Source of the DNA: Pseudofrankia inefficax
GTDB taxonomy: Bacteria > Actinomycetota > Actinomycetes > Frankiales > Frankiaceae
Direction of reading: 5' to 3'
NCBI RefSeq assembly: GCF_000166135.1
Contig: NC_014666.1
Location: 4,216,001 to 4,280,000, forward strand
Length of the DNA: 64,000 nt
Positions 3,033 to 47,872 of the stretch are shown piece by piece; position 1 is the first letter of the stretch; every line of letters starts with the position of its first letter. The translations under genes and the position numbers were made by a program. The notes under the pieces were generated by a model that was not told the DNA's origin, made no database searches, and saw only the letters and a list, made by a program, of their open reading frames with translations.

Positions 3033-3089
3033 CTAGCGGGTGCTAGTAATAGTCGATGTACGCTAGCATCCGTAACTAGTGCGCACAAG
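3033..3089. promoter_or_regulatory. Paired LacI-type operators upstream of the LacI gene at 3133
   Basis: Two copies of the cluster's 14-bp palindrome: CTAGCGGGTGCTAG at 3033-3046 and CTAGTGCGCACAAG at 3076-3089, 43 bp start to start. The second covers an in-frame upstream GTG at 3079, which argues for the later start at 3133 and for autoregulation of the LacI gene. Confidence 0.75.
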
Positions 3090-3132
3090 CCCGCAACGGT
3101 TCGGGCGCGACGTGACGGGAAGGACGTGGCCG

Positions 3133-4134
3133 GTGGCCGTGCAGAGACCGACCACCAGCCGGCGGGTGACCGCCCTGGACGTGGCCCGAGAGGCCGGGGT
3201 GTCCCGGGCGACGGTCGGCTTCGTCCTGAACGACACACCCAACCAGACGATTTCCGAGGGCACCCGCGAGCGCGTGTTCCGGGCCGCGGAGCTTCTCGGG
3301 TATCGCCCGAACAGCGCGGCCCGCGCGCTCGCCAGCGGCCGCAGCCGCATCATTCTGCTCGTCCTTCCCGACTGGCCCGCGGAGTACCGGCTCCGGGACT
3401 ATCTGGACGAGGTCTCGCTCGTGCTGGACAAGGCCGGCTACTCGCTCGTGACGTACACCCGCCAGCCCTCCCAGTCGGCCCGGCCGCTCTGGGAGTCGCT
3501 GAACGCGGACCTCGTCATCGGCACGGCCAGTTTCAGCGCGCCCGACGTCGCGTCGATGCTGGCCTGCGGAGTCCGCGCGATCCATCCGGATCCCGACCAC
3601 CCCTACCGTCCCGACGTCTCGTTGGCGTTCAGCGCCGGGCCGGAGCTACAGGTCGAGCACCTGCACGAACGGGGCCATCGCCGCCTCGTGTACGCGGCGT
3701 TCACCGAGCCGTACGCGTCCTCGATGGTCGTCGCCCGGCACGCGGCGGCGAACGAACGAGCCCGCGCGCTGGGCCTGCCGGACCTCGACCTGCGGCGTAT
3801 CGACTACCGCGAGGGCGCGCCTCAGCAGGTGGTCCGCGAGTGGCTCGACGCGGGCATCACCGGGGTGGTCGCGTTCAACGACGACGTCGCGGCCGCGGTC
3901 GTCGGCACGGCGGTGCGTGCCGGGCTGACGCTGCCCGCGGACCTCGCGGTCATCGGCCACGACGACTCACCGATCGCGGCCATGTTCGTGCCCTCGCTCT
4001 CCACCGTCAGGATCGACACCGCGGCCCTGGGACGCCAGTTCGGCGAGTTCGTGCTGCACCGCGTCGACGGCCGCCCGCTGCCCACTCCGCGTGTGTCAGC
4101 GAAACCCGTGCTCGTCGCCCGCGAGACCAGCTGA
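3133..4134 (+). CDS. LacI-family transcriptional regulator (paralogue 1)
   Basis: A 333-residue LacI/GalR-type repressor: N-terminal helix-turn-helix (VTALDVAREAGVSRATVGFV), hinge helix around RPNSAARALASGRS, and a periplasmic-binding-protein-like effector domain ending in VIGHDDSPIA and SLSTVRID. The usual recognition segment TVSRVLN is replaced by TVGFVLN, a feature shared with the second LacI at 5735-6742. GTG 3133 is preferred because GGGAAGGA (3117-3124) sits 8 bases upstream and the earlier GTG at 3079 lies inside an operator. Two operators precede it, so it probably represses itself and the island's glycosidase genes, responding to a sugar or glycoside inducer. Convergent with the GH1 gene. 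Confidence 0.9.
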   Translation: MAVQRPTTSRRVTALDVAREAGVSRATVGFVLNDTPNQTISEGTRERVFRAAELLGYRPNSAARALASGRSRIILLVLPDWPAEYRLRDYLDEVSLVLDKAGYSLVTYTRQPSQSARPLWESLNADLVIGTASFSAPDVASMLACGVRAIHPDPDHPYRPDVSLAFSAGPELQVEHLHERGHRRLVYAAFTEPYASSMVVARHAAANERARALGLPDLDLRRIDYREGAPQQVVREWLDAGITGVVAFNDDVAAAVVGTAVRAGLTLPADLAVIGHDDSPIAAMFVPSLSTVRIDTAALGRQFGEFVLHRVDGRPLPTPRVSAKPVLVARETS

Positions 4135-4172
4135 GCCAGCGGCCAAGCCCGGCCTCGTCCAGGGACCGCCAA

Positions 4173-4245
4173 GATCGGCTTTTTCGCCCTCGCGCGGCTG
4201 TGCCCGCGGCGGGTGTGCGACCGCGCGAGGGCCACAACGACGATC
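4173..4245. repeat. Intergenic palindromic element, copy 1
   Basis: Inverted-repeat element between convergent genes. Its left arm (4173-4191) matches 16 of 19 bases of the left arm of the element at 5629-5703, and it contains a perfect 12-bp stem (4186-4197 with 4221-4232). The two copies look like members of one REP/MITE-like family. This copy probably also terminates both flanking transcripts. Confidence 0.55.
4186..4232. terminator. Hairpin between convergent LacI and GH1 genes
   Basis: GCCCTCGCGCGG at 4186-4197 pairs perfectly with 4221-4232; the loop contains a smaller CCCGC/GCGGG stem. It lies between two gene ends and is symmetric, so could serve both strands. No U-tract, as is common in high-GC actinobacteria. 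Confidence 0.6.
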
Positions 4246-4300
4246 AAGCCAGCGGGCCGGCCTCGCCGGGCGAATCTGGCCCGCGGACGATCGCCGTGGG

Positions 4301-5521
4301 TCAGGGGAGGCGGTTGGCGCGGGCTACGTCGCCGAGCCAGCGTGCGGACGGCTTCACGGTGCGGGTGAACGTGGTCCGGTCGACGGCGATGAGGCCGAAC
4401 GTCATCGCGAACCCGGACGTCCACTCGAAGTTGTCGAGCAGGGTCCAGTGCAGGTAGCCGCGGACGTCGACGCCGTCCGCGAGGCAGGCGGCCAGACCTT
4501 CGAGGGCGCCCGCCGTGTAGGCGACGCGGGCGTCGTCGTCGGCCGTGGCCATGCCGTTCTCGGTGACCAGGATCGGCACCTGGGCGTGGCCGGCCGCCAG
4601 CCGGACCGCGTGCCCGAGCGCCCGCGGGTAGACCTCCCAGCCCGTCTGCGTCGTCGGTACCCCGTCCGGCACGGGCAGCAGGCCGGCGGGCCCGATGCGT
4701 TCCCTGGTGTACGTCTGCACGCCCACGAAGTCGTCGTCGCGGGACACGTCGAGCCAGTCGAGCTCGGTGGCCTGGCGGACGGCGGCGCACCGGTCCTCGC
4801 CGCCGTCCGCGGGCTGCAGGTCGATGAGCGCGAGGGTCCAGCCGACGGCGGCGTCACCGGGCCCGGACTTGATGGCCTCGACCGCCTTGCGGTGCGCGGC
4901 CGCCATCACCTCGACGCTCGGGGCGGGCCAGCTTCCCGTCGCCCTGGGCCGCTCGGCCGGCGCGCCCGCGCCGTCGGACAGGCCGAGGCCGTCCTCGCGG
5001 GCCGCGGCTGGGACGAGGCCGAGGTGCACCATCATCGAGACGACGTTCGGCTCGTTGAAGGTGCAGATCCAGGGCACCAGGTCGCCGATGTGCTCGGTCA
5101 CCCGGGCGGCGTAGCGCGCGAACCGGTCGACGGCGGCGGCGCCGCTCCAGCCGCCGGCCGCGGCGAACCAGCGGGGCGCCGTGAAGTGGTTGTACGTGAC
5201 GACGGGGGTGACCCCGTGGTCCAGGCAGGTACCGACCATGCGCCGGTAGTGGTCGAGCGCGGCGCGGGAGAAGTACCCCTCCTCGGGCTCGATCCGGGCC
5301 CATTCGACGCCGAAGCGGTAGGCGTTGAGCCCCAGGTCGGCGAGGATGGCGATGTCCTCGGGATAGCGGTGGTAGTGGTCGCAGGCATCCCCCGAGGGCT
5401 CGGCGAAATGGGAGTTCGGGGCCCATTCGGCCGCCCACAGGTCGGCGTTGACGTTGCCGCCCTCCACCTGATGCGCCGCCGTGGCGGCACCCCAGAGGAA
5501 ACCGTCCGGGAACGTGCTCAT
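4301..5521 (-). CDS. Glycoside hydrolase family 1 beta-glycosidase
   Basis: A 406-residue GH1 (beta/alpha)8 barrel enzyme that hydrolyses beta-glucosides or related beta-glycosides by a retaining mechanism. The N-terminal signature FPDGFLWGAATAAHQVEGG is intact. The acid/base Glu is at about residue 157 (TFNEPN), the nucleophile Glu at about 321 (LVTENG), and the aglycone/sugar site motif LHWTLLDNFEW follows. It is shorter than the usual 440-470 residues, the missing length being between the two catalytic Glu residues. No signal peptide is seen, so it is probably cytoplasmic. Two LacI-type operators (5545-5558 and 5585-5598) lie directly upstream, placing it in the island regulon. Confidence 0.92.
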   Translation of the reverse strand: MSTFPDGFLWGAATAAHQVEGGNVNADLWAAEWAPNSHFAEPSGDACDHYHRYPEDIAILADLGLNAYRFGVEWARIEPEEGYFSRAALDHYRRMVGTCLDHGVTPVVTYNHFTAPRWFAAAGGWSGAAAVDRFARYAARVTEHIGDLVPWICTFNEPNVVSMMVHLGLVPAAAREDGLGLSDGAGAPAERPRATGSWPAPSVEVMAAAHRKAVEAIKSGPGDAAVGWTLALIDLQPADGGEDRCAAVRQATELDWLDVSRDDDFVGVQTYTRERIGPAGLLPVPDGVPTTQTGWEVYPRALGHAVRLAAGHAQVPILVTENGMATADDDARVAYTAGALEGLAACLADGVDVRGYLHWTLLDNFEWTSGFAMTFGLIAVDRTTFTRTVKPSARWLGDVARANRLP

Positions 5522-5544
5522 GGTGGGTTCTCCTGCCTCGAGAG

Positions 5545-5598
5545 CTAGCCCGCGCCAGATCGCGCGGAACGTTACTCGCAGGAGCTAGCGCGCGCAAG
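5545..5598. promoter_or_regulatory. Paired LacI-type operators upstream of GH1
   Basis: CTAGCCCGCGCCAG (5545-5558, two mismatches to the ideal palindrome) and CTAGCGCGCGCAAG (5585-5598), 40 bp apart. They sit 24-77 bp before the GH1 start codon on the minus strand, the right place for repression of that gene. Confidence 0.7.
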
Positions 5599-5628
5599 CA
5601 GGTCGATCCCGGGCGACCTGGCCGCGCT

Positions 5629-5703: not shown

Positions 5704-5734
5704 CCGCACCTTGCCGACCTTCTCGGGCCCGGCG

Positions 5735-6742
5735 CTAGGTCGACTCGCGTTGGATGAGGGTGACGTGGGCGGGCGGCTCGTGGGTGGGCGGCGGCCGGCC
5801 GTCGACCCTGCTGAGCGCGAGCGCGGCGAAGTGGCGACCGAGGGCGGCGCTGTCGAAGCGGACGGACGACAGCGCCGGGACCATGATCGTCGCGATCGGG
5901 CTGTCATCGTGGCCGACCACCGCGAGGTCACCGGGCACGCGCAGTCCCAGCCGCAGCGCGGCGCCGACGACGGCGGCCGCGACGTCGTCGTTGTACGCCG
6001 CGATCCCGGTGAGCCCGCCGTCGTGCCACGCGCGGACGACCTCGTCGGTGCCGCGGTCCCGGTAGTCGAGGCACCGGACGTCCACGGCTGGCAGGCCCAG
6101 CGCCGCCGCATGGCTGCGGGCGGCGTCATGGCGAGCGGACACGAGCGAGGAGAGCCGAGGCTCGTCGAACACGGCGTAGGCGAGGCGCTCGTGGCCGCGT
6201 TCGCGCAGGTGCTCGACCTGGAGCCGAGGCCCGTCGATCGAGGCCAGGGACGTGTCCGGTTCCGCGGGTCGCGTCGAGCTCTGATCGGGAAGGACGCGCC
6301 TGACCCCGCAGGCGCGCAGCGAGGCGAGGTCGTCCGCGGTGAACGGCACCACGCCGACGACCAGGTCGGGGGTCACGGACTCCCAGAGCCGCCGGGCTGG
6401 CCCCTGGGGATGGCGGAACTGGGTCACCAGCGAGTACCCGGCCTCGTCGAGAGCCAGCGAGGCCTCGTCGAGGAACGCGCGGAAGCGGAACTCGATCGGC
6501 CAGTCCGGCAGGACGAGCACGATGATCCGGCTGCGGCCGCTGGCCAGTACCTGGGCGGCGCCGTTCGGTCGGTAGCCGAGGCGAACGGACGCCTCGATCA
6601 CCCGCGCGCGGGTGCGCTCGGAGATGGTCTGGCCCGGGGTCTGGTTCAGGACGAAGCCGACGGTGGCGCGGGAGACGCCGGCCGCCCGGGCCACGTCGCT
6701 GGCGGTGACCCGCCTCCTTGCCGTCGCGTCTGACACAGACAC
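5735..6742 (-). CDS. LacI-family transcriptional regulator (paralogue 2)
   Basis: A 335-residue LacI-type repressor closely similar to the one at 3133-4134 across its length: same helix-turn-helix (VTASDVARAAGVSRATVGFV), the same QTISERTR and GYRPNGAAQVLASGRSRIIV hinge region, and matching effector-domain blocks (VVGHDDSPIA, SSVRFD). It is divergent from the GH3 gene at 7084, with two operators in the shared region (6775-6788 and 6819-6832), the nearer 33 bp before its start. The recognition helices of the two paralogues are nearly the same, so they probably bind the same CTAGCGCGCGCTAG-type sites while their effector domains may sense different sugars. Confidence 0.9.
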   Translation of the reverse strand: MSVSDATARRRVTASDVARAAGVSRATVGFVLNQTPGQTISERTRARVIEASVRLGYRPNGAAQVLASGRSRIIVLVLPDWPIEFRFRAFLDEASLALDEAGYSLVTQFRHPQGPARRLWESVTPDLVVGVVPFTADDLASLRACGVRRVLPDQSSTRPAEPDTSLASIDGPRLQVEHLRERGHERLAYAVFDEPRLSSLVSARHDAARSHAAALGLPAVDVRCLDYRDRGTDEVVRAWHDGGLTGIAAYNDDVAAAVVGAALRLGLRVPGDLAVVGHDDSPIATIMVPALSSVRFDSAALGRHFAALALSRVDGRPPPTHEPPAHVTLIQREST

Positions 6743-6774: not shown

Positions 6775-6832
6775 CTTGCGCGCTCTAGCGCAAGAATGGT
6801 AGCTTGCGTCGACCGAGTCTAGCGCGCGCTAG
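6775..6832. promoter_or_regulatory. Paired LacI-type operators in divergent LacI/GH3 region
   Basis: CTTGCGCGCTCTAG (6775-6788) and the ideal palindrome CTAGCGCGCGCTAG (6819-6832), 44 bp start to start. They lie in the 341-bp divergent region and could control both the LacI gene and the GH3 gene. The remaining 251 bp up to 7083 shows nothing else recognisable. Confidence 0.75.
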
Positions 6833-7083: not shown

Positions 7084-9546
7084 ATGACCTCCGAGACGGC
7101 GGCAAGCCCCGAGAGCCGGGCCGACGACCTCCTGCGGACGATGACGGTCGAGGAGAAGGCCCAGCAGGTCACCGGGCTGCTCTCGGCCGGGCTGCTGGGC
7201 CTGAACGGCGTGATCGAGGCCGTGGCCGGCCGGGTGATGGGCGACGGGATCGGCCAGATCGGGATGCTGGGCATGTTCGGTCAGCGGCCGCCGCAGCTGG
7301 CCCAGATGGCGAACCAGATCCAGCGGTACCTCGTCACCCAGACCCGGCTCGGCATTCCGGCGATGCTCCACATCGAGGCGCTGAACGGCCCGCTGGCCGC
7401 CGGTTTCCCGGTCTACCCGACGGCGATCGGCCTGGCCGCGACCTGGAACCCCGACGGCGTGGAGCAGATGGCGGCCATCACCGGCCGTCAGGTCCGGGCC
7501 GTGGGCCATGGCCAGGTGTTCTCCCCGGTGATGGACGTGGCCCGCGACGCCCGCTGGGGGCGGGTGCACGAGACCTACGGCGAGGAGCCCTACCTGGTCA
7601 GCGCGCTGAGCGTCGCGTTCACCCGCGGCCTGCAGGGCGCCGGGCCGCGTGACGGGGTGATCGCGACGGGGAAGCACTTCCTCGGCTACGGGGTGTCCGA
7701 GGCCGGCCAGAACATGGCGAAGACCGTCCTGGGGCGCCGCGAGCTGTACGAGGTGTACGCCCGCCCGTTCGAGGCGGCGATCCAGCTGGCCGGGCTGCGG
7801 TCGGTGATGAACTCCTACAGCTCGATCGACGGGGTCCCGGTCGGCGCGAGCCGGGAGATCCTGACCGACCTGCTGCGCGAGCGGCTGGGCTTCACCGGCA
7901 CCGTCGTCTCCGACTACGACACCGTCGGCCATCTGTTCTCCCGGGTCGGGGTGGCCCGGGACGCGACCGACGCGGGGCGCCTGGCGCTGGCCGCCGGGAT
8001 CGACGTGGAACTGCCGAACCCGTTCGGCTACGGGCGGACGCTGGCCGAGGCGGTCCGCCAGGGCGTCGTCCCCGTGGAACAGCTCGACCAGGCGGTGTGG
8101 CGGGTGCTGCGCGACAAGTTCGCGGCCGGCCTGTTCGACGCGCCCTACGTCGACGAGGACCCGGTCGTGATCAGCGCCCTCGCCGGCGAGGGCGGCGAGC
8201 CCGGCGGGCTCGCGCACCGGCTGGCCCAGCAGTCGGTCACGCTGCTGACCAACGACGGGCGGCTGCCGCTGTCCCGGGACCTGACCCGGATCGCCGTCGT
8301 CGGGCCGCACGCCGACGGTCTTTCGGTCGCGTTCCCGCCTTACACGATTCCCGCCGCGCTGGACATGCTCGGCGCCCGGTTCCGAGGCGAACGGGCCAAC
8401 ATCCCCGGAACCGAGGGCATGACGATCGAGACGACGCCCGAGGCGGTCGAGCTGATGCGGCGCGACCTTTCCGGCGTGCTCTCCCTGTCGATCGACGACT
8501 ACATCCGCGAGAACTACGGCTCGGTGTCGCTCGCCGACGCCGTCCGCGCGGCCGTCCCCGGTGCCAAGGTGACCGTGGCCGCCGGCTGTGGGGTCCTGGA
8601 CGAGGAGCCCGCCGACATCGCCGCGGCGGTCGCCGCGGCCCAGGACGCCGAGGTGGTCATCCTCGCCCTCGGCGGGCGGGCCGGCTGGTTCGTCCCCCGG
8701 ATCACCGAGGGCGAGGGCTGCGACACGGCCGACATCGACCTGCCGGCCAACCAGGTCGCCCTGGTGCGGGCCGTGGTGGGCACCGGGACGCCGGCCGTCG
8801 GCGTCGTCTACACGGGCCGGCCGATGGCGCTGACCGCGATCGCGGACGAACTGCCCGCGATCGTGTACGGCTACTACGGCGGCCAGCACGCGTCGACGGC
8901 GATGGCCGAGGTCCTGTTCGGCGACGTCAACCCGTCGGGGAAACTGCCGGTCTCGATCCCGCGCCACTCCGGCCAGGTCCCGGTCTACTCCGGCCAGCCG
9001 ACCGGCACCGGCTACCGGCGCACCGACCGCGACGCCCACCAGGACTACCTCGACCTCCCCTCGCGGCCCCTGTTCCCGTTCGGCCACGGGCTGAGCTACA
9101 CGGCCTTCGAGTACTCCGACCTCGTCGTCAGCCCCGATGAGGTCGACGCCACGGGCTCGGTGACCCTCACGCTGACCCTGCGCAACAGCGGCGACCGGTC
9201 CGGCACCGAGATCGTGCAGTTCTACCTGTCGGACCGGGCCACCGGGGTGACCAGACCGGCTCAGGAGCTGGTCGGCTTCGCCCGCGTCGATCTCGGGCCG
9301 GGGGAGACCGCCGAGGTCGGCTGCACCGTCGAGCTGGCCCAGCTCGCCTATCTCGGCCTCGACGGGCGCCTGCAGGTGGAGCCCGGCCCGATCGAGGTCC
9401 TGGTCGGGGCGTCGTCGGACGACAGCCGGCTGCGCGGACGGTTCGAGGTGGTGGGGGAGACGGCGGTCCTCGAGCACCGGAGCGCGTTCCTCTCGGCGGC
9501 CACGGTCCGCCAGGTAGCGGCCGTGCCCGAACCGGTCTCGCCGTGA
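7084..9546 (+). CDS. Glycoside hydrolase family 3 beta-glucosidase/beta-xylosidase
   Basis: An 820-residue GH3 enzyme of the beta-glucosidase/beta-xylosidase type. Domain 1 starts at DDLLRTMTVEEKAQQ and contains SPVMDVARDARWGRVHETYG, GKHFLGYG and the nucleophile Asp near residue 277 (TVVSDYDTV). Domain 2 follows (LPLSRDLTRIAVVGPHADG, VLFGDVNPSGKLPVSIPR), then an FnIII-like domain (VTLTLTLRNSGDRSGTEIVQ). ATG 7084 is preceded by GAAAGGAA. It lacks a secretion signal and lacks the helical tail of the GH3 at 683-2962. The MLHIEALNGP segment and long N-terminal region resemble xylosidase-like GH3 members, but the specificity is not provable. Probably repressed through the operators at 6775-6832; followed by an esterase gene, perhaps cotranscribed. 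Confidence 0.92.
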   Translation: MTSETAASPESRADDLLRTMTVEEKAQQVTGLLSAGLLGLNGVIEAVAGRVMGDGIGQIGMLGMFGQRPPQLAQMANQIQRYLVTQTRLGIPAMLHIEALNGPLAAGFPVYPTAIGLAATWNPDGVEQMAAITGRQVRAVGHGQVFSPVMDVARDARWGRVHETYGEEPYLVSALSVAFTRGLQGAGPRDGVIATGKHFLGYGVSEAGQNMAKTVLGRRELYEVYARPFEAAIQLAGLRSVMNSYSSIDGVPVGASREILTDLLRERLGFTGTVVSDYDTVGHLFSRVGVARDATDAGRLALAAGIDVELPNPFGYGRTLAEAVRQGVVPVEQLDQAVWRVLRDKFAAGLFDAPYVDEDPVVISALAGEGGEPGGLAHRLAQQSVTLLTNDGRLPLSRDLTRIAVVGPHADGLSVAFPPYTIPAALDMLGARFRGERANIPGTEGMTIETTPEAVELMRRDLSGVLSLSIDDYIRENYGSVSLADAVRAAVPGAKVTVAAGCGVLDEEPADIAAAVAAAQDAEVVILALGGRAGWFVPRITEGEGCDTADIDLPANQVALVRAVVGTGTPAVGVVYTGRPMALTAIADELPAIVYGYYGGQHASTAMAEVLFGDVNPSGKLPVSIPRHSGQVPVYSGQPTGTGYRRTDRDAHQDYLDLPSRPLFPFGHGLSYTAFEYSDLVVSPDEVDATGSVTLTLTLRNSGDRSGTEIVQFYLSDRATGVTRPAQELVGFARVDLGPGETAEVGCTVELAQLAYLGLDGRLQVEPGPIEVLVGASSDDSRLRGRFEVVGETAVLEHRSAFLSAATVRQVAAVPEPVSP

Positions 9547-9664
9547 GCCGACCGCCGCGGTGACCAGGCCAGCGGCGCGCCGGTGTGGGCAAGGTTGAGG
9601 CCCCTTCCGCACCCACACCGCGCGCGCCGCGCCTGGTTGGACCCAACACAGAATGCGAGGGCAG

Positions 9665-10633
9665 ATGGGGAACGTGGACCAGCCGGTGCCGCCCATGGAC
9701 GAGGAGTGCGCCGCGGCCTGGAACCATCTCGTCGAGACCCAGTTCGGCGGGAGGATTCCCGAGATCACCGAGGAGCTGGTCCCGCGCGCTCAGGCGCACA
9801 AGATGCCGACCCGCGCGATGGTGCTCGACCAGTTCCCCGTCACCGAGGAGGAACGCTCGGTCCCGGGCCTCGACGCGGAGATCACCGTCTCGGTCTTCAC
9901 CCCGCACGACCACGAAGGGACCGGCCCAGGCATCGTCTGGCTGCACGGTGGCGGAATGATCGCCGGCCATCGGTTCGGGGCCGAGGCGGCGTTGCAGCTC
10001 GCGCTGGCTTCCGGCGGCGTGGTCGTGTCCGTCGAGTACCGGATGCCTCCGGAGTACCCGGACCCAACGCCCGTCGACGACTGCTACGCCGCGCTGCTCT
10101 GGACCGCGGACCATGCCGGCGAGCTGGGGATCGACCCGGCCGCGCTGGTGCTCGCCGGCGGCAGCGCGGGCGGTGGCCTCGCGGCCGGCACGGCGCTCCA
10201 CGTCCGCGACGACGGCGGCCCGAGTCTGGCGGGCCTGCTCCTGCTCTCCCCGATGCTCGACGACCGGATGCGCACCGCCTCGGCGCACATGTCCGGCCGG
10301 TTGTCGTGGACCCGGACCAGCAATGAGACCGGCTGGCGGGCGCTGCTCGGAGACCGCGCCGGCACCGACCGCGTCTCCAGCTACGCGGCGCCCGGCCGCG
10401 CGGTCGACGTCTCGAGGCTGCCCCCGACCTTCATCGACGTCGGATCCGTCGACCTCTTCCGCGACGAGGACGTCGCCTTCGCCACCTCGATCTGGGCCAG
10501 CGGCGGCGACGCCGAGCTCCATGTCTGGCGCGGTGGCATCCACGGCTATGAGGGCTACGCCCCCGAGTCCCGGCTCACCGTCGAGACGCTCGCCGCTCGC
10601 GAGCGCTGGCTCACCCGCGTGCTCGGCCGCTAG
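9665..10633 (+). CDS. Alpha/beta-hydrolase esterase, HSL family
   Basis: A ~322-residue carboxylesterase of the hormone-sensitive-lipase family. The oxyanion-hole motif HGGG (WLHGGGMIAGHRFG), the nucleophile Ser in GGSAGGGLAAG, the acid in DVGSVDLFRDED and the His in GGIHGYEGY are all visible. The start could be ATG 9653 or ATG 9665; the latter has GAGGG just upstream. It lies 118 bp after a GH3 gene on the same strand, so a shared transcript is likely. In this context it may remove acyl groups (acetyl, cinnamoyl or similar) from glycosides, an inference from neighbours. A perfect hairpin follows immediately. Confidence 0.88.
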   Translation: MGNVDQPVPPMDEECAAAWNHLVETQFGGRIPEITEELVPRAQAHKMPTRAMVLDQFPVTEEERSVPGLDAEITVSVFTPHDHEGTGPGIVWLHGGGMIAGHRFGAEAALQLALASGGVVVSVEYRMPPEYPDPTPVDDCYAALLWTADHAGELGIDPAALVLAGGSAGGGLAAGTALHVRDDGGPSLAGLLLLSPMLDDRMRTASAHMSGRLSWTRTSNETGWRALLGDRAGTDRVSSYAAPGRAVDVSRLPPTFIDVGSVDLFRDEDVAFATSIWASGGDAELHVWRGGIHGYEGYAPESRLTVETLAARERWLTRVLGR

Positions 10634-10697: not shown

Positions 10698-11924
10698 TCA
10701 GCCGGTGCTGCCGTCGGCGCAGACCCGGTCGCGGACCACCTGGAACGCCGTGCCGTCGGGTGCCACCTGGACGAACGCGTAGCAGGAGAGCGGCTTGCCC
10801 GAGTCGTCGCGCAGGTCGATGGGCGCGATCAGGCCGCCCGCGTCGTAGGCGGAGACGCCGCGCAGCGCCTTGACGAAGCCGGCCCGGGTGGGGCAGGGCC
10901 CGGCCAGGTCGAGCCCGCGCAGGAACATGTCCGCGCTGATGTAGGTGAACATGGCGAACTGCTGGTCCGCGTCCCCCGACTCCGGGGCGTAGGTCACCAT
11001 CGCGTCCTCGTACTGCTTGATCGCCGGGCCGCCCGCCTCGAACGGGCGGAAGAAGACCGGCATCGACACGCCGGCCAGCGCCTTGCCGTGCGCACTGGCG
11101 ATCACGCTCCGGTCATAGCCCGTGAGCACCACGCTGACGGCGAGCTGGGCGCCCGCGGCGCGGGTCGCCTGGACGACCTGCGCGAAGTCGTCCGGCGCGG
11201 TGATGCCCAGCAGCGCGTCGGCGCCGAAGCTGATTATCTTGTTGGCCACCTGTGCCGGGTTACCGGTGGTGGCCACGTAGGAGAACGTCTGGACCGCGCT
11301 CGCCCCGGCCGCGCGCAGGCTCTGCTCGTAGCTCACGGTGTTCTCGGAGGTCAGGGCCGACGGGTCGCCGATGATGATGGCGACCCTGGTGCCGCGGGCG
11401 GCCCGGACGTACCTGCCGACCACCGCGGGGGAGGCCGAGTAGATGAAGGAGAACATGTTGTCGTGGCCGGCCCAGGCCGGCTCGATGGCGGTCCCGGTGA
11501 CCGGCACCACCTGTTTGGTCAGGGCGGTCATCGAGTCGCCGAGCGAGGCGCTCGCCGACACGAGGCCGAAGACGTTCCGCTGCTGGACGAGGGTGTCGAT
11601 CGCGACCGCGGCCCCGGACGCGGTGCCCTGGTCGTCGCCCCAGTCGTAGGTGATCCGCCGCCCGTGCACACCGCCGTGCGCGTTCGCGAGGCCGATTCTG
11701 GCGTCGAGCCCGGCGCGGGCCGCCGAGAGCGCCGTGCTCGACGGCCCGGTGGCGGGATACACGAACCCGAGCTTGATCTGGTTCGAGGTGACCCCGGGCG
11801 CGTCGCAGGCCGTGTTCCCGCTGTTTCCGCTGCTCCCGCCGGGAGCCGACGAGCAGCTGGTCGCCAGCGCGAGCGTGACGGCGACCGCGATCCCGCCGGA
11901 TAATCTTCGTCTGTGCGCGCCCAT
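10698..11924 (-). CDS. ABC solute-binding lipoprotein, Peripla_BP_6 type
   Basis: A 408-residue lipoprotein receptor with the type I periplasmic-binding fold used by branched-chain amino acid, urea and amide transporters. ATG 11924 is chosen for the AAGGGAAAG upstream and because it gives a clean signal: basic MGAHRRR, hydrophobic core, lipobox ATSC, then a Ser/Gly linker. The receptor starts at GVTSNQIKLGFVYPATGPSS. It differs from the 16789-18096 receptor, which shares only the fold. No permease or ATPase gene is near, so partner genes must be elsewhere. Two LacI-type operators lie upstream (12030-12083), so it is induced with the glycosidases, suggesting a glycoside or aglycone ligand. Confidence 0.88.
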   Translation of the reverse strand: MGAHRRRLSGGIAVAVTLALATSCSSAPGGSSGNSGNTACDAPGVTSNQIKLGFVYPATGPSSTALSAARAGLDARIGLANAHGGVHGRRITYDWGDDQGTASGAAVAIDTLVQQRNVFGLVSASASLGDSMTALTKQVVPVTGTAIEPAWAGHDNMFSFIYSASPAVVGRYVRAARGTRVAIIIGDPSALTSENTVSYEQSLRAAGASAVQTFSYVATTGNPAQVANKIISFGADALLGITAPDDFAQVVQATRAAGAQLAVSVVLTGYDRSVIASAHGKALAGVSMPVFFRPFEAGGPAIKQYEDAMVTYAPESGDADQQFAMFTYISADMFLRGLDLAGPCPTRAGFVKALRGVSAYDAGGLIAPIDLRDDSGKPLSCYAFVQVAPDGTAFQVVRDRVCADGSTG

Positions 11925-12029
11925 ATCTTTCCCTTGAAAGGTCTGGCAATGTACGGAGGCCTCGCGATGCGGCAGGCCGGGGTCGGCGCCACCGTTACTC
12001 GCGAGTAAGAACGTGCTGGTCGCCGGCAA

Positions 12030-12083
12030 CTAGCGCATGCTAGTAGTGGTGGACGCTATCAGCGCGCCGCTAGCGCGCACAAG
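12030..12083. promoter_or_regulatory. Paired LacI-type operators upstream of solute-binding protein
   Basis: CTAGCGCATGCTAG (12030-12043) and CTAGCGCGCACAAG (12070-12083), 40 bp start to start, 106-159 bp before the lipoprotein start. The other flanking gene ends here, so the sites serve only the minus-strand lipoprotein gene. Confidence 0.72.
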
Positions 12084-16564: not shown

Positions 16565-16621
16565 CTTGTGCGCGCTAGCGGGGCGGTGCTAGCCTACGCC
16601 CCGACAGCTAGCGCACGCTAG
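16565..16621. promoter_or_regulatory. Paired LacI-type operators upstream of solute-binding protein
   Basis: CTTGTGCGCGCTAG (16565-16578) and CTAGCGCACGCTAG (16608-16621), 43 bp start to start, 168-224 bp before the receptor start codon. Part of the 17-site set. Confidence 0.75.
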
Positions 16622-16788
16622 TGGCCTGGAGCACGGCACGCTGCGCCTGCGGCGCGTCACTCCCTGCGCACCACCCTCGGGCCGCCGGACGGCCGTCGCT
16701 GCCCACGGCCTTCCCGCGTCAATGCGGCCGCTCTTCGCACCGCGGCCTCCCACGACCCGGTCCGACGACCCCGACAATGGAGCTGGAC

Positions 16789-23383: not shown

Positions 23384-23397
23384 GTAGCGCGCGCTAG
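23384..23397. promoter_or_regulatory. Single LacI-type operator upstream of GH43
   Basis: GTAGCGCGCGCTAG, one mismatch to the ideal palindrome, 29 bp before the GH43 start codon. No partner site is seen 40-46 bp to either side. Confidence 0.7.
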
Positions 23398-25939: not shown

Positions 25940-25979
25940 GCTGCCTCCCACAGTGAGCCGCTCACGCTAACAGCGAGAA

Positions 25980-25993
25980 CTAGCGCGCGCAAG
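25980..25993. promoter_or_regulatory. Single LacI-type operator upstream of esterase
   Basis: CTAGCGCGCGCAAG, one base from the ideal palindrome, between the esterase start (25939) and the end of the TetR gene. It can serve only the esterase. Confidence 0.72.
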
Positions 25994-31018: not shown

Positions 31019-31106
31019 GGTGATCACCCTTCTCGTTGGCTCGTTGCCAAGGCCAGCCACGGGCGCGTGAGGCCGCGGGGGCCGGCAAACGGCAGAGCAT
31101 CGGATA

Positions 31107-31166
31107 CTAGCGCGAGCAAGTAGCCGTGTGGTGTGAGGTCGGCTGGCCGGTACTTGCGCGCACTAG
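31107..31166. promoter_or_regulatory. Paired LacI-type operators in divergent oxidoreductase/GH78 region
   Basis: CTAGCGCGAGCAAG (31107-31120) and CTTGCGCGCACTAG (31153-31166), 46 bp start to start. They lie between two divergent genes and can repress both. Confidence 0.75.
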
Positions 31167-31235
31167 TTCTCGCCGTTAGCGTCGCTCCTCGCTAGCGGCG
31201 AAGCGTCGGTGGGTTCCGTTGAAGATCGAGGTCAC

Positions 31236-37400: not shown

Positions 37401-37506
37401 GCCGCTCGGGATGCGGCGCCGCGTGCATCGGCACGCGGTTCCAGGAGACGAGCTCGGGCGCGTCCCAGGGCTGGACGGCGGCCAGGCCGGCCACGTTCAC
37501 GGTCAT
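34444..37506 (-). CDS. lacZ: Glycoside hydrolase family 2 beta-galactosidase
   Basis: A 1020-residue GH2 enzyme with the same length and five-domain layout as E. coli LacZ: sugar-binding jelly roll (PHPERLVLDGVWDFQLLPDP), Ig-like domain, TIM barrel, second Ig-like domain and the beta-galactosidase small-chain domain. The acid/base Glu is at about 486 (SLGNESGYG), the nucleophile Glu at about 556 (ACEYAYSQGN). ATG 37506 overlaps the galK stop (ATGA). An insertion around residues 235-300 (Gly/Pro-rich) is unusual. Last gene of galT-galK-lacZ: it releases galactose that galK and galT then process. Regulated through the operator at 40011-40024. Confidence 0.93.
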   Translation of the reverse strand: MTVNVAGLAAVQPWDAPELVSWNRVPMHAAPHPERLVLDGVWDFQLLPDPRAERAEQWRPVEVPGLWTMQDSGDRPQYTNVILPFDAPYPHPPAANPTGVYRRRFTAGEWAGRRVVLHVGAAESALLVRLNGHDVGFSKDSHLAAEFDVTGFVRPGVNDLELTVVKWSDATYVEDQDQWWHGGLARSVYLYTTAPTYLADLQAVADFDATTAAGRLRLDVTVGGCGEPAPGWTVRTRLADLFAPAPLGVPGGSAGAGVPQGSADSGYPEQPPPSVIPAGLLDLLSLAPSGAPLSDEQRVRARRMQDRALPPRAGLVRFESEGLAVTPWSAENPCLYPLEVELVAPGGEVVERVTVRVGFRRVEIRGRDLLVNGGRVWIQGVNRHDFNARTGRVITEDQIRAELRLLKTFNINAVRTSHYPNDPRFLDLCDEYGLYVVAEANIEAHAYPGTVSADPRYLGAFVDRVSRMVLRDKNHPSVLLWSLGNESGYGANHDAAAGWARRYDPTRPLHYEGAINDDWFGGHHASDVVCPMYPVLDALRAYAAHPDADRPVIACEYAYSQGNSTGGLGAYWDLFESTPGLQGGFIWELYDHGLDPDGDGRFRYGGDFGDQPNDGVICINGVLFSDDSPKPAFHEARHLFAPVRVVSGADEALLGRVRLRNRQTFEDLSRLRLALQVEGVDGPGEAVLVAPPAIPAGGEGRLDLPAAVVEQLARPDAVALTLVVHLAETTPWAEEGTELARLQVPLDRAVPTWSEPRPATGVLTLDDDGLLLHPALSAPPVLSFWRAPTDNDASFPLDSRFVRTGLFRVTRTVLDQKTTGSTAAIVSRYTAAYGAVIEHQQQITALSDTTFRFDEHVVLPTELDDVPRLGIVFATVPGYEHLSWLGLGPHETYPDRKRSGLLGRWTAEVGDLFVPYLLPQENGGRADVRELTLTGPGGHQITVSPDRPMQLNVSHFQATDLEAARHVWELTPRGETFVHLDLAHRGLGTAALGPDTLPQHRISAGEYRWTWCLEFADPRD

Positions 37507-38759
37507 TCTTGGCCGCTCTCCTTCATCGAGTCGTTGGTGGTGCGCGGCAGGTGCTCCTGGACAGGAATCAGCGAGGTTCCGCCGACCGGCCGGCAGAGGT
37601 GAACGACGCCGTCCCGTCCGGTCGCGGCGCGATAGTCGCCGAGGACCGCCCCCGCGAACGCGTCGGCCGATTGGGCGTCGACCAGCGCGAGGACGCAGCC
37701 GGCGAAGCCGCCGCCGGTCATCCGGGCGCCGTGGCAGCCTGGAGCGGTGCGGCAGGCGGCGACGGCCGCGTCGAGCTCGGGGCCGCAGACCTCGAAGTCG
37801 TCACGCAGGGACCGGTGACCGTCGAGCAGCACCGCCCCGGCGCGGGCGAGGTCCGAGCGCGCCAACGCGGCGACGACGTCCCGGACCCGCGTGTTCTCGG
37901 TGACGAGGTGCCGCGCCCGGCGCAGCTCCACCGGATCGAGGCGGTCCGCCGCGTCGGCCGGCAGGTGGTCTCCGAGGTCGCGCAGGCTGGCGACGCCGAG
38001 CCCGGCGGCGGCGCGCACGCACTCGGCGCGGCGCTGGCCGTAGGCGCTGGTCACCAGCTCCCGGCGGGTGCCGGTGTCCACGATCGCCACGACCACCGAG
38101 TCCGGCACCGCGACCGGGAGCATCGTGAGATCACGGAAGTCGATCCGCAGCGCGTGGCCGGCCGTCGAGGCGGCGCAGGCCAGCTGGTCGAGCAGCCCGG
38201 TCGCGGCGCCCACCCAGTGGTTCTCCGCCCGGTGGGCGAGCCTGGCCGCCGCGACCGGGTCCCAGTCTCGCCGCCAGGTGACCGCGCAGGCACGGGCGAC
38301 GGCCAGCTCCAGGGCCGCGGACGACGACAGTCCGGCGCCGGCCGGCAGATCGCTGGCCAGCGACCCGTACCACCCTCGGGACGCGCCGGCGCCCGCGGCG
38401 GCCCCCATCGCCGCGACCACGCCCTCGACGTACCCGGCCCAGCCGGCCTGCGCCCGCGCCGCCCGGCCCGGCGGACCGGACGCGGACAGCGCGGGTGGTG
38501 GCAGGTGCACACGTGCCGGCGCCTCGCGATCCTCGGAGAACACCTCGATGAGCGCGCCGGCCTCCTCCGCCGGGCTGAACGCGAGGCACAGCTCCAGGCC
38601 GACGGCCAACGGCAGGCAGAGCCCGTCGTTGTAGTCGGTGTGCTCGCCGATCAGGTTCACCCGGCCGGGCGAGCGCACCAGGTAGCGGGGCGCGGCGCCG
38701 AAGGTCTCGACGAACGCCGCCACGGCCCGCCGCGCGGCGTCCGGGGCCTCGGCCGTCAC
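37503..38759 (-). CDS. galK: Galactokinase
   Basis: A 418-residue GHMP kinase that phosphorylates galactose at C1, the entry to the Leloir pathway. The galactokinase signature PGRVNLIGEHTDYNDG, the ATP loop LPAGAGLSSSAALELA and the C-terminal MTGGGFAGCVLAL are all intact. GTG 38759 overlaps the galT stop (GTGA), and its own stop overlaps the lacZ start, so the three genes are translationally coupled. No galE is in the window, so UDP-galactose epimerase must be supplied elsewhere. Confidence 0.93.
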   Translation of the reverse strand: MTAEAPDAARRAVAAFVETFGAAPRYLVRSPGRVNLIGEHTDYNDGLCLPLAVGLELCLAFSPAEEAGALIEVFSEDREAPARVHLPPPALSASGPPGRAARAQAGWAGYVEGVVAAMGAAAGAGASRGWYGSLASDLPAGAGLSSSAALELAVARACAVTWRRDWDPVAAARLAHRAENHWVGAATGLLDQLACAASTAGHALRIDFRDLTMLPVAVPDSVVVAIVDTGTRRELVTSAYGQRRAECVRAAAGLGVASLRDLGDHLPADAADRLDPVELRRARHLVTENTRVRDVVAALARSDLARAGAVLLDGHRSLRDDFEVCGPELDAAVAACRTAPGCHGARMTGGGFAGCVLALVDAQSADAFAGAVLGDYRAATGRDGVVHLCRPVGGTSLIPVQEHLPRTTNDSMKESGQE

Positions 38760-39907
38760 GACGACCCCACGACGGCGCGCAGCATCGCCGCTGCCCGCTC
38801 CGGGGTGATGTCGCGCTGGGCGCCGGCGAGCATCTCGTAGCCGACGAGGAACTTCCGGACGGAGGCCGACCGGAGCAGCGGCGGATAGAAGTGCGCGTGC
38901 AGCTGCCAGTGGTCTGGCGCGCCCGACCGGGCCGGGGACGAGTCCGCGGGTCCAGGCGCGCCGTGCCAGCCCATCGAGTACGGGAACGGCACCCCGAACA
39001 GGCCGTCGTAGGCCGCCAGCAGGGTACGGATGATCACGACCAGGCTGGCGCGCAGCTCGTGGTCCAGCTCCGGGAGGCCCGCGACGGGGCGGACCGGGAC
39101 GAGCATCGTCTCGAACGGCCAGACGGCCCAGTACGGCACGACCGCGAGCCAGGCACTGTTCGCGGCCACGACCCGTTCGCCCGCGGCACGTTCGATCTCG
39201 GCGTAGTCGACCAGCAGGCGCCGGCCGTGCCGGCGCAGGTAGCCGAGCTGGCGGGCGTCCTCGGCGGCGGGCTCGTCGGGCAGCGAGGCGCTGGCCCAGA
39301 CCTGGCCGTGCGGATGCGGGCTGGAGGCCCCCATCGCGGCGCCGCGGTTCTCGAAGATCTGGACCCAACGCCACTGCCGGGCCAGCTCGGTGGCCTGGTC
39401 GACCCAGGTGTCGACGACCGCGCCCAGCTCGCCGTCGGACATCGCGGCGAGGTGCCGGTCGTGGCGTGGGCCGAAGCACAGCACGCGGCAGACACCGGCC
39501 TCCGGCTCGGACCGCAGCAGCTCGCCGACGTCGATCCCGCCGACCGTGAGGATGGACGCCGCGCGCCGGTCCTGGTCAGTGAGAGTTCGGTCGGCGTCGG
39601 GCCGCAGGGCCGGGAAGTCGTTGGTGAACACGTACGGGCCGACGTACGCGGGATTCCGGAGCTCGGGTCCGCCGCCGCCGCCTGGATCTCCGAGGTTGCG
39701 CAGGTTGCCGGGGCACAGTGGGCACGCCGCGTCGTGGCTGACGGCCTCGGGTGGGCTGACGGCCTGGCTGTCGCCGGACCAGGGCCGTCGATCCCGGCCG
39801 GCGGACACCAGAATCCACCTGCCTCGCAACGGATCGAACCGCCGGTGCGACGGCGGGGGAGCGTCGGGCGGCTCGCCACCTGGCGGGTGAGGGGTCAGCG
39901 CGTGCAC
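38756..39907 (-). CDS. galT: Galactose-1-phosphate uridylyltransferase
   Basis: A 383-residue HIT-superfamily enzyme that swaps UMP between UDP-glucose and galactose-1-phosphate. The active-site HPH motif is at about residues 198-200 (SSPHPHGQVWA), with the upstream FENRGAAMG and the N-terminal zinc-type cysteines CPLCPG. The C-terminal HWQLHAHFYPPLL is typical. GTG 39907 start, with GGGAA upstream; the first ~20 residues are Pro-rich and may vary. It begins the galT-galK-lacZ operon, whose likely operator is 40011-40024. Confidence 0.93.
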   Translation of the reverse strand: MHALTPHPPGGEPPDAPPPSHRRFDPLRGRWILVSAGRDRRPWSGDSQAVSPPEAVSHDAACPLCPGNLRNLGDPGGGGGPELRNPAYVGPYVFTNDFPALRPDADRTLTDQDRRAASILTVGGIDVGELLRSEPEAGVCRVLCFGPRHDRHLAAMSDGELGAVVDTWVDQATELARQWRWVQIFENRGAAMGASSPHPHGQVWASASLPDEPAAEDARQLGYLRRHGRRLLVDYAEIERAAGERVVAANSAWLAVVPYWAVWPFETMLVPVRPVAGLPELDHELRASLVVIIRTLLAAYDGLFGVPFPYSMGWHGAPGPADSSPARSGAPDHWQLHAHFYPPLLRSASVRKFLVGYEMLAGAQRDITPERAAAMLRAVVGSS

Positions 39908-40010: not shown

Positions 40011-40024
40011 CTAGTGCGCGCTAG
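40011..40024. promoter_or_regulatory. Single LacI-type operator upstream of galT
   Basis: CTAGTGCGCGCTAG, one base from ideal, 104 bp before the galT start. A short palindrome GTACATGTAC at 40032-40041 is next to it, function unknown. Confidence 0.7.
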
Positions 40025-44331: not shown

Positions 44332-44335
44332 CGCG

Positions 44336-45042: not shown

Positions 45043-45055
45043 CGGCCCGCGAATC

Positions 45056-45100: not shown

Positions 45101-45142
45101 CGCGTTCGTCACTACCTGGACGCCGCGGACCGCGATACTCCC

Positions 45143-47731
45143 TCAGGCCGTGTATTCGTGAGTCCCGGGGCCCACGACGTGCTCCGTGCCGTTCGGCAGC
45201 CGCACGTCGGCGGTGGTGTTCGGCGGCAGGGTCACCGTCAGGTGAAGGTCCGTTCCGGTTCGGGTCCAGGAGCTCGCCACCGTGCCGTAGACGCTGGTGT
45301 AACGCGCTTGGGCGGACGTCAGGCTGCCGCCCGGCACCGGGGCGATGGTGAAGTGGTTCTCCCCGGTGACGCGCAGGCCGGCGACCGTGTCGAACAGCCA
45401 CTGGCAGACGGCGCCGGGGGAGTAGTGGTTCCGGCTTTCCTTGCCCTCCCAGTCCTCCCAGACCGTTGTCGCGCCCGCCTTGACCTCGGCGAGCCAGCTC
45501 GGCGCGTCCTCGTTGTCCAGCATCCGGTAGGCGATCTCGGGGTGACCGGCCGCGGTGAGCGTCGGCAGCACGAACGGCGTCGACAGGAAACCGGTGTTGA
45601 CGTGGAAGTCCCGGTTCTTCACCGCCTGCACGAGCCGGTCCTCCAGACGGCGCTTCACGTCGCCGTCGGCGAGGCCCAGCGCGAGCGGGCGCACGAGCTT
45701 CGCCTGCCGGTCGGTGTCGAGAGTGCCGTCGCGCAGGAACTGGTGCGTGTACGCGGCCTTCGCGCCTTGGGCGTACTCGGCGAACAGGTCCGCGTCCGCG
45801 GTCTCGCCGAGCACGGTCGCGATCTCGGCCAGGTGCGTCATCGTGTAGTGCAGGTAGGCCGTCGCCTCCTCGGGCATCGGCGTGCGGCCGGGGGACGGGT
45901 CGCGGAACTCGGCCGCCTCCAGCCAGTCGCCGAGGTGCACGCCCTTCTCGTACAGGTATCGCGCGTGCGGGTTGTCGGCGGCGGCCTCGGGGTCGAGCGG
46001 GCCCGCGTTCGTGATCATGAACATCGCGTAGCGGCGCATCGCGTCATAGCAGTCGCGCAGGATGCTCTCGTCGCCGTAGCGCTTCCAGTAGCGGTAGGGG
46101 ATGAGCACCACCGCGTCGGCCCACCCGACGGAGCCGCCGGTGGTGTCGTAGAGCATCGACGTGCCGTTGTAGGGGATGACGGCGGACAGCTTCCCGTCGG
46201 CGAGCTGCCCGTCGCGGACATCCCGCAGCCATTTGCGGAAGAACGCGCCGACGTCCATCAGGTAGGCGGCCGTGTCGAAGAAGACCTGGGCGTCGCCGGT
46301 CCAGCCGAGGCGCTCTCGGGTCGGGCAGTCCGTGGGCACGTCGAGGAAGTTGCCCTTCATGCTCCACCGGGTGTTCTCCAGGAACCGGTTGACTCCCTCG
46401 TGCGAGGTGACGCACGTGCCGGTCTGCTCCATGGCGGAGTACACCGCGATCGCCTCGAAGTCCGCCGGGTCGATGTCGAGGTCGGTCTCGACGAGGGCGT
46501 AGCGGAACCCGAAGACGGCGAAGCGGGTCACGTAGTGGTCGGTGCCGCCGCTGGCGGTGAACACGACCTCCTGCTTCGGCGTGGGCTGCAGCTCGCCCTT
46601 GATCTCGCTCTCCTGGCCGGTGAGGAGGAGGATCTCGACGTCGCGGCCGAACTCGTGCACGGGCTTGCGTAGCTGGAAGTTCCGCTGGGTGAACTCGCCG
46701 GCCCCGTCGAGGATCTCGCCGAGGCGCAGGGTGAGCCGCTGGCCCGCGCGTCCCGAGACCGTGAAGGCGACGAACCCGGCCAGGTTCTGCCCGAAGTCGA
46801 GGACGCGCGCCCCGCTCGGGGTCGTCAGCAGCCGGGCGGGGAACCGTTCGTGCTCGGTCACCGGCACGTTGTCGGCCGCGGTGGGGATCATCGTCTCGGT
46901 CGTGATCCGGGCGTGGCCCGAGTAGCTCGGCGCGAGCCGGGCGTCGTAGACCTCGCCGTCCTGCAGGTCGGCGAACCGCACCGGGCCGTCGTCGCTCCAC
47001 CGGAACCGCTCATCGCTGCCGACGGTCTCGGTGGAGCCGTCCGGATACGTCAGCTCCAGCTGGGCCAGCAGCCTCGTCTCGCGGCCGAACACGTGCGTGG
47101 CCCCGAACGCGCCGAGCGACCCGCGATACCAGCCGTCGGCCAGGCGCACCTCCAGCACGTTGTCCGCGGCGAGCAGGCTCGTCACGTCGAAGGTCTGGTA
47201 GTGCAGGCGGTGACGGTAGTCGGTGGCACCGGGACCGAGACGGGCCTCGCTCACCGGCTCGCCGTTCAGCACGGCCTCGTAGACGCCGGCCGCGGTGATG
47301 TACAGGCGGGCGGCCAGGACCGGCTCCCGTACGCGGAAGTCGCGGCGGAAGTGGTCGACCGGGTAGCGCACGTCGGGCTCGGGCGTGTAGTCACCGGTGA
47401 TCCACTCGGCGGTCCAGTCGGCCGGGTCGAGCAGTCCCAGCTCGAACCACGACTCGGCGGGCGGTCCCGCGGCGCCGGCCTCGTCCCAGAGGACGACCGA
47501 CCAGTCGACGCGGTCGCGGCTGCCCAGCGGGACGCCCTCATACCGAACGTGGGTCATCCGTGACGAGGCGACCTTGCCGGTGTCCCACACCGTCTCGCCG
47601 CCGCGGCGGGCCACGACCTGGTAGGCCGTCTGCCGCAGGCCGCCGTCCGCGTTCCAGTAGAGGCGGGGCGCGGTGATCCCCAGGCCGAGCGGCTCGGTGA
47701 GGTACTCGGTGCGCAGCCGGATCGCTCTCAT
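45143..47731 (-). CDS. Glycoside hydrolase family 78 alpha-L-rhamnosidase (2)
   Basis: An 862-residue GH78 rhamnosidase with the full family layout: N-terminal domain MRAIRLRTEYLTEPLGLGI, rhamnosidase beta-sandwich (AARLYITAAGVYEAVLNGE), and (alpha/alpha)6 domain with VPTDCPTRERLGWTGD acidic cluster, GDWLEAAEF and TVWEDWEG. It lacks the C-terminal helical tail of the other GH78, and the two are only distantly related within the family, suggesting different linkages. ATG 47731 is preceded by GGGCAGGCG-type sequence. Its promoter region carries two LacI-type operators (47818-47831 and 47859-47872). Confidence 0.92.
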   Translation of the reverse strand: MRAIRLRTEYLTEPLGLGITAPRLYWNADGGLRQTAYQVVARRGGETVWDTGKVASSRMTHVRYEGVPLGSRDRVDWSVVLWDEAGAAGPPAESWFELGLLDPADWTAEWITGDYTPEPDVRYPVDHFRRDFRVREPVLAARLYITAAGVYEAVLNGEPVSEARLGPGATDYRHRLHYQTFDVTSLLAADNVLEVRLADGWYRGSLGAFGATHVFGRETRLLAQLELTYPDGSTETVGSDERFRWSDDGPVRFADLQDGEVYDARLAPSYSGHARITTETMIPTAADNVPVTEHERFPARLLTTPSGARVLDFGQNLAGFVAFTVSGRAGQRLTLRLGEILDGAGEFTQRNFQLRKPVHEFGRDVEILLLTGQESEIKGELQPTPKQEVVFTASGGTDHYVTRFAVFGFRYALVETDLDIDPADFEAIAVYSAMEQTGTCVTSHEGVNRFLENTRWSMKGNFLDVPTDCPTRERLGWTGDAQVFFDTAAYLMDVGAFFRKWLRDVRDGQLADGKLSAVIPYNGTSMLYDTTGGSVGWADAVVLIPYRYWKRYGDESILRDCYDAMRRYAMFMITNAGPLDPEAAADNPHARYLYEKGVHLGDWLEAAEFRDPSPGRTPMPEEATAYLHYTMTHLAEIATVLGETADADLFAEYAQGAKAAYTHQFLRDGTLDTDRQAKLVRPLALGLADGDVKRRLEDRLVQAVKNRDFHVNTGFLSTPFVLPTLTAAGHPEIAYRMLDNEDAPSWLAEVKAGATTVWEDWEGKESRNHYSPGAVCQWLFDTVAGLRVTGENHFTIAPVPGGSLTSAQARYTSVYGTVASSWTRTGTDLHLTVTLPPNTTADVRLPNGTEHVVGPGTHEYTA

Positions 47732-47817
47732 CGCCTGCCCTGTTCGTCGCTGGACGTCGGGCCGCTCTCGGCCGACGGCGGCTTCCCCGTGGTCCTCGTG
47801 CGAAGATCCCGTCGTAA

Positions 47818-47872
47818 CTAGCGCCCGCTAGCGTGGCGACGAAGCTACCAGCGGTCCGCTAGAGCGGGCAAG
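47818..47872. promoter_or_regulatory. Paired LacI-type operators upstream of GH78
   Basis: CTAGCGCCCGCTAG (47818-47831) and CTAGAGCGGGCAAG (47859-47872), 41 bp start to start, 87-141 bp before the GH78 start. Confidence 0.7.

Follow-up and report, generated by a model that had tools for sequence, protein, structure and literature searches.

A predicted LacI-family regulon with paired operators in a glycoside-utilisation island of Pseudofrankia inefficax

Genes and operators of the island

The window analysed here is a 64,000-nucleotide stretch (G000:C1:4216001-4280000) of the 8,815,781-base genome of Pseudofrankia inefficax. It carries a family of short palindromes, with the ideal form CTAGCGCGCGCTAG, which are predicted to be the operators of two paralogous LacI-type repressors, LacI1 and LacI2, in an island of glycoside-utilisation genes (Table 1). 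The sugar-related genes encode glycoside hydrolases (GH) of families GH1, GH3 (two), GH43, GH78 (two) and a LacZ-type GH2, together with galK, galT, esterase-like hydrolases and two Peripla_BP_6 proteins. Alongside these are genes for Rieske oxygenases, PhyH dioxygenases, a CoA-transferase and luciferase-like proteins. On the basis of this gene content, a decorated plant glycoside is the likely substrate, with its aglycone probably being attacked as well. Both LacI1 and LacI2 contain an N-terminal LacI helix-turn-helix domain (PF00356) and a periplasmic-binding-like effector domain (PF13377), each above cut-off, and a profile of the LacI1/LacI2 type matches the structures of CcpA and LacI.

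All 17 sites listed in the first-pass annotation were found in the window, with zero to three mismatches to the ideal palindrome. In total, 21 matches with up to three mismatches were detected, versus 8.3 expected, and none of 100 shuffles reached as many; the four additional matches (at 10596, 24028, 30622 and 51994) had poor weight-matrix scores. Scores of the 17 sites ranged from 14.1 to 22.6 bits, and no other place in the window exceeded 8.0 bits, a gap that is partly circular, since these sites had also served to train the matrix. Genome-wide, 46 matches with up to two mismatches were observed. By the first-pass annotation, a motif common across the genome away from sugar genes would have spoken against such a regulon, but all eight of the sites with no more than one mismatch lie inside a 57-kb island (4207465-4263831). 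The pattern CTWGN6CWAG occurs 49 times in the genome, 16 of them within these 57 kb (binomial p ~3e-23, for a stretch picked after the sites were seen), versus 515 occurrences of the reversed control pattern; the operator word is thus rare in this genome.

The earlier suggestion that the sites wire the whole island is too broad: they are concentrated there, but none was found directly before GH3a (533-2962) or araA-araB-araD (55236-59300). The latter region (55236-60588, minus strand) contains araD, araB, araA and a third LacI gene (59419-60588) with a TVSR helix, and is devoid of CTAG operators. The regulon extends beyond the window, and an additional operator pair lies at 4207465/4207507 (window -8535/-8493), upstream of a GH2 gene; its second member is weak (12.2 bits). 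Downstream of this GH2 gene with the same operator, an open reading frame (ORF) on the plus strand (L016:14077-16311; genome 4210077-4212311) encodes a 744-residue protein, in which a major-facilitator domain is fused to a LivF-type ABC ATPase, and the ORF that follows appears, by eye, to be a LivH-LivM-LivG fusion.

Table 1. Predicted operators and associated genes in the window (bp, base pairs)
Feature	Position	Strand	Remarks
Operator CTAGCGGGTGCTAG, pair 1 (lacI1)	3033..3046
Operator CTAGTGCGCACAAG, pair 1	3076..3089	-	TTG -35 leftward; -10 TAGCGT at 17 bp
lacI1	3079..4134	+	Pfam LacI + Peripla_BP_3; longest ORF, true start probably further in
GH1 gene	4301..5521	-
Operator CTAGCCCGCGCCAG, pair 2	5545..5558		Weakest of the 17
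Operator CTAGCGCGCGCAAG, pair 2	5585..5598	-	-35 TTGCGC, 17 bp, -10 TAACGT, toward GH1
lacI2	5735..6742	-	62% identity to lacI1, same recognition helix
Operator CTTGCGCGCTCTAG, pair 3	6775..6788	+	-35 TTGCGC, 18 bp, -10 TAGCTT, toward GH3b
Operator CTAGCGCGCGCTAG, pair 3	6819..6832		Perfect
GH3b	7084..9546	+	Divergent from lacI2
Alpha/beta-hydrolase (esterase-like)	9653..10633	+	3' of GH3b
Substrate-binding protein 1 (SBP1), Peripla_BP_6	10698..12029	-	Longest ORF
Operator CTAGCGCATGCTAG, pair 4	12030..12043
Operator CTAGCGCGCACAAG, pair 4	12070..12083	-	-35 TTGTGC, 18 bp, -10 TAGCGT, toward SBP1
Operator CTTGTGCGCGCTAG, pair 5	16565..16578	+	-35 TTGTGC, 18 bp, -10 TAGCCT, toward SBP2
Operator CTAGCGCACGCTAG, pair 5	16608..16621
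Substrate-binding protein 2 (SBP2), Peripla_BP_6	16621..18096	+	Longest ORF
Single operator GTAGCGCGCGCTAG	23384..23397		43 bp before GH43; without TTG half
GH43 gene	23427..24881	+
Alpha/beta-hydrolase (esterase-like)	24983..25951	-
Single operator CTAGCGCGCGCAAG	25980..25993	-	-35 TTGCGC, 17 bp, -10 TAGCGT, toward esterase (24983..25951)
Gfo/Idh/MocA oxidoreductase	30035..31060	-
Operator CTAGCGCGAGCAAG, pair 6	31107..31120	-	TTG toward oxidoreductase, without -10 at 17/18 bp; not alignable with G006
Operator CTTGCGCGCACTAG, pair 6	31153..31166	+	-35 TTGCGC, 17 bp, -10 TAGCGT, toward GH78a
GH78a	31209..33740	+	Alpha-L-rhamnosidase domains
galT, galK, LacZ-type GH2	34444..39907	-	Co-directional, downstream of site 40011; putative operon
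Single operator CTAGTGCGCGCTAG before galT	40011..40024		Without TTG half, no clear promoter; 14/14 bases kept in G006
GH78b	45143..47731	-
Operator CTAGCGCCCGCTAG, pair 7	47818..47831
Operator CTAGAGCGGGCAAG, pair 7	47859..47872	-	-35 TTGCCC, 18 bp, -10 TAGCTT, toward GH78b
PhyH-type dioxygenase	47995..49212	+	Divergent from GH78b across pair 7

Paired operators and promoter elements

The operator is an even palindrome with a central CG, the form of the LacI family, although a minority of the sites differ at the centre. Fourteen of the 17 sites form seven pairs and, when the pair outside the window is included, the spacing is 40-46 bp in each of the eight. CTTG replaces CTAG in one half of ten operators, nine in the window and one beyond it. 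Nine of these ten CTTG halves read TTGNNC followed by TAnnnT at 17-18 bp, versus 1 of 25 CTAG halves. The same bias was observed in 20 regions from Frankiaceae relatives, the near sister G006 included, where TAnnnT at 17 or 18 bp accompanies 30 of 37 CTTG and 3 of 82 CTAG halves, and in 67 non-Frankiaceae loci from other Actinobacteria (43 of 78 versus 4 of 146), in which 37 of 44 close pairs are spaced 38-45 bp. The CTTG halves fit a -35 box, and mere decay was rejected as their explanation. A TTG half, TAnnnT at 17-18 bp and a spacing of 40-46 bp would together place the second operator just past the expected start point. The pairing, the -35 within the CTTG half and the pair outside the window are additions to the first-pass annotation.

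The predicted promoters number nine, eight of which are directed at GH1, GH3b, SBP1, SBP2, the esterase, GH78a, GH78b and the GH2 gene outside the window; the ninth, at 3076, is considered below. Within 3033-3089, overlapping divergent -10 elements were observed (TAGCAT forward, TAGCGT reverse).

Elsewhere in the genome, no regulon members were found among 15 places read outside the island, a subset of all outside sites that had been picked by matrix score or CTAG/CTAG frame: nine carried a TTG half, and none of the nine had TAnnnT at 15-20 bp. The best site outside the island (CTTGTGCGTACTAG at genome position 8461656, L257:2001; 17.3 bits) is intergenic, with a right-hand gene that resembles an integrase by eye. 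It is followed by TAGCAC at 18 bp and is thus without a -10 at the right place.

Conservation in the genus and family

The relatives in the genome collection are named Pseudofrankia, Parafrankia and Frankia. In the sister species (G006), in which 18 of 19 sites were alignable, the operators are identical at 250 of 252 bases, versus 1076 of 1214 in the flanks and 94% in coding sequence. Five of the eight genomes of the genus carry both this LacI subfamily (E <= 1e-60) and the motif; of the three without this LacI, two have no motif match and one has a single off-consensus match. Within the genus, the presence of the motif tracks that of the LacI subfamily.

At the family level, 10 of 35 genomes contain the subfamily (E <= 1e-75), and an operator was found upstream of 20 of the 21 LacI homologues, the two in the window included. 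The sequence CTAGCGGGNGCTAG was also found upstream of seven Frankiaceae homologues (L020-L023, L050-L052), and the GH43 homologues in G003, G005 and G006 are likewise preceded by one operator just upstream. In nine of the 20 Frankiaceae regions lacI and GH2 are divergent across an operator pair, and in most of these regions GH3 or transporter genes follow. In G006 and the present genome, GH2 lies elsewhere with its own operator pair, and GH3a adjoins lacI1. The homologue of the PhyH gene (47995) in G002 has an operator pair facing it (-35 TTGCCC, 18 bp, -10 TAGTTT). Since the PhyH gene in the window flanks pair 7 and its homologue has a facing pair of its own, the regulon seems to take in some of the aglycone branch.

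Distribution among Actinobacteria

The genome collection was scanned more widely with 18 aligned LacI proteins as the query; of 500 confirmed hits the best 80 were retained, giving 79 loci, some of them being the same Frankiaceae genes as in the family count. They originate from Frankiaceae, Agromyces, Microbacterium, Streptomyces, Nonomuraea, Nocardia and others. By a strict pattern, lacI is preceded by an operator of this kind in 64 of the 79 loci, of which 39 have two or more. Within about 5 kb, a GH3a-like gene was present in 44 of the 79 loci and a GH78a-like gene in 44 of the 79, some loci being shortened by contig ends. In view of these neighbours, this LacI is probably a widespread regulator for rhamnosyl/glucosyl-type glycosides. 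Because the operator precedes so many homologous lacI genes, commonly near GH78 and GH3 genes, its predicted assignment to the subfamily with the helix SRATVGF is well supported. Two phylum-wide searches gave little: with a Tyr-type LacI, 2 of 396 genomes matched, one being that of the window, with only five candidates scored per genome, and the exact paired CTTG pattern was found in none of the 396.

The sites are, by their nature, dispersed repeats clustered in one region, as structural or mobile-element repeats would be. Such an origin is nevertheless extremely improbable in light of their exact placement around promoters, their conservation above that of the flanks and their association with lacI across the phylum.

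The recognition helix and the operator base

The recognition helix reads SRATVGF in both LacI1 and LacI2, i.e., it is of the TVGF rather than the TVSR type. The helices being identical, the sites are not assignable to LacI1 or LacI2 individually. The first-pass proposal that both paralogues would govern one regulon is supported by the confinement of the near-perfect sites to the island, by the joint presence of motif and LacI subfamily in the genus and by the operators upstream of homologues. The identical helices and the operator pair before each gene argue against control by one paralogue alone, with the other having drifted to a private role or serving as a decoy. The latter explanation is rather unlikely, although each of the five genus genomes bearing the subfamily keeps two or three copies, the more distant of which are 59-62% identical to LacI1, so that there is room for functional divergence.

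The last helix residue was examined further in 90 subfamily proteins (the 79 loci and 11 others), 75 of which have Phe there and 15 Tyr. Upstream sites were available by the strict pattern for 73 of the 90; the other 17 (15 Phe, 2 Tyr) were dropped before the count. An A-type half (CTAG) was found for 59 of 60 Phe proteins, the other having CTTG only, and all 13 Tyr proteins had T-type halves only (Fisher p 1.6e-13, with relatedness disregarded). Among all alignment columns, the Phe/Tyr column accounts for 86% of the information on the half-site base and the next column for 33%. Phe and Tyr interchange at least six times on the tree, although the starred branches of a quick tree force only two changes. 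In the careful tree, the supported branches yielded four independent pairs, a mean of 3.9 of which agree; with all branches, six pairs were obtained, and six of six agreed in 451 of 500 draws and five of six in the remaining 49. In a profile alignment to CcpA, the Phe of this subfamily occupies the position of the Arg of TVSR, the equivalent of LacI Arg22. Together, this suggests that one repressor residue (Phe or Tyr) sets one operator base (A or T).

Several observations do not conform to such a rule. L098 is a Phe protein with a CTTG/CTTG site, and four Tyr-type genes (L125, L129, L133 and L093) have A at the fourth base of one half. Both sets are impure, with helices such as PATVGF, RTTVSF, RATVTY and RVTVSY, and include identical or nearly identical rows (L142/G447_L187, L146/L164, L115/L159). 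Moreover, four independent pairs on well supported branches (two in the quick tree) do not suffice for a sign test to reach significance.

On balance, we consider it probable that a second LacI code exists outside the TVSR group. The hydroxyl that distinguishes Tyr from Phe would decide whether the fifth base counted from the centre is A or T (CTAG versus CTTG), the choice of G or A at the base after it may depend on the neighbouring Gly or Ser, and the Phe type would retain one CTTG half where the -35 needs it. Four matches of helix and operator may thus be proposed: TVGF with CTAG, TVGY with CTTG, TVSF with CTAA and TVSY with CTTA. The Gly/Ser part is only suggested. With a search pattern that admitted only A or T and A or G at the tested bases, and that was run without a control, a T-A-A half-site was found for 7 of 10 TVSF genes recognised by script (in one half only for L201 and L153) and a T-T-A half-site for 1 of 5 TVSY genes (L056, with CTTACGCGCGTAAG); by script, the remaining three TVSF and four TVSY genes had no recognisable site. 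TVSF-type LacI genes with TAA..CG..TTA-type palindromes upstream were also observed at L192, L193, L194, L195 and L219. If true, the Phe/Tyr rule would mean that, in the repressor family studied best, specificity is switched by a single hydroxyl, and would allow LacI operators beyond the TVSR group to be predicted or re-targeted.

Proposed regulation

In the proposed scheme, dimers of LacI1 and LacI2 would bind the palindrome, the sites being common to both paralogues. In the typical unit, one operator would overlap the -35, the change of one half from CTAG to CTTG allowing TTGYGC (once TTGCCC) to double as the -35 box, such that operator and promoter would hold bases in common. The second operator would lie about four turns of the helix away, at a distance of 40-46 bp. 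Repressor bound at both sites would close the promoter, probably in a cooperative manner, and would be released by a sugar or glycoside brought in through Liv-type transporters. The lacI genes would repress themselves through the same paired sites.

A different regulator of the island might bind these palindromes in place of LacI1 and LacI2, given that several TetR genes, one MarR-like gene and the third LacI lie in or near it. This is very unlikely, since the operator travels with the lacI1/lacI2 homologues across Actinobacteria and its sequence follows their recognition-helix residue. It also has the even, CG-centred form given as usual for the LacI family in the text of Ravcheev et al. (2014; PMC4052901), and the TVSR-type third LacI adjoins ara genes that carry none of the sites.

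Some observations weigh against a local LacI regulon. The site at 31107 lacks a -10, and the single sites at 23384 and 40011 lack a clear promoter. By the strict pattern 17 of the 90 LacI genes are without a site, and L030 is the one family homologue without an upstream operator. Four of the five subfamily-bearing genus genomes have three copies on one operator type, which leaves the insulation of the paralogues unexplained. Finally, the leftward promoter at 3076 is without a target today: it faces away from lacI1 and runs into GH3a at its 3' end. As relatives place GH2 divergent from lacI at this position, it is most likely a rearrangement remnant, whose gene has been lost.

Taken together, we assign a probability of about 0.9 to a local catabolic LacI regulon of the glycoside island, with predicted operators for two paralogous repressors. 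It would constitute a strongly supported regulon for glycoside utilisation in Frankiaceae.

Comparison with known systems

In the literature texts searched, a body that does not extend to RegPrecise or subscription papers, the operator string had no match; among the matches listed for CTAGCGC with LacI all were unrelated, and no text combined LacI family with Frankia, glycos and regulator. The word CTAG is absent from the main text of the survey of LacI-family local regulons by Ravcheev et al. (PMC4052901), its logos and tables aside. The present system resembles the local regulons described there in its CG-centred even palindrome, upstream sites, autoregulation and nearby sugar genes. The spacing of its pairs, in this genome and in other Actinobacteria, differs from the peaks at 13, 22 and 32 bp given in that text.

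According to the text of Rodionova et al. (2013; PMC3870299), RhaR of the Actinomycetales, likewise of the LacI type, also has alpha-rhamnosidase genes among its targets. In contrast, RhaR governs L-rhamnose catabolism through a 20-bp motif, and the conserved core here is 14 bp. Within the window, where rha genes were sought, no operator-adjacent gene was recognised as rhamnose catabolic, and the sugar operon is araA-araB-araD, without the operator described here. Compared with that description, its logos aside, the subfamily may overlap with RhaR.

The code that Camas et al. (2010; PMC2978694) derived for LacI recognition, as presented in their text, applies to TVSR helices only and treats the equivalent of LacI residue 22 as a recognition position, linked to G at NT-6. 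As in that work, autoregulatory sites were used here to link helix residues to bases, but the present subfamily, with TVGF or TVGY, falls outside the TVSR scope. The regulon itself is of a known kind, and the proposed Phe/Tyr rule is its novel part.

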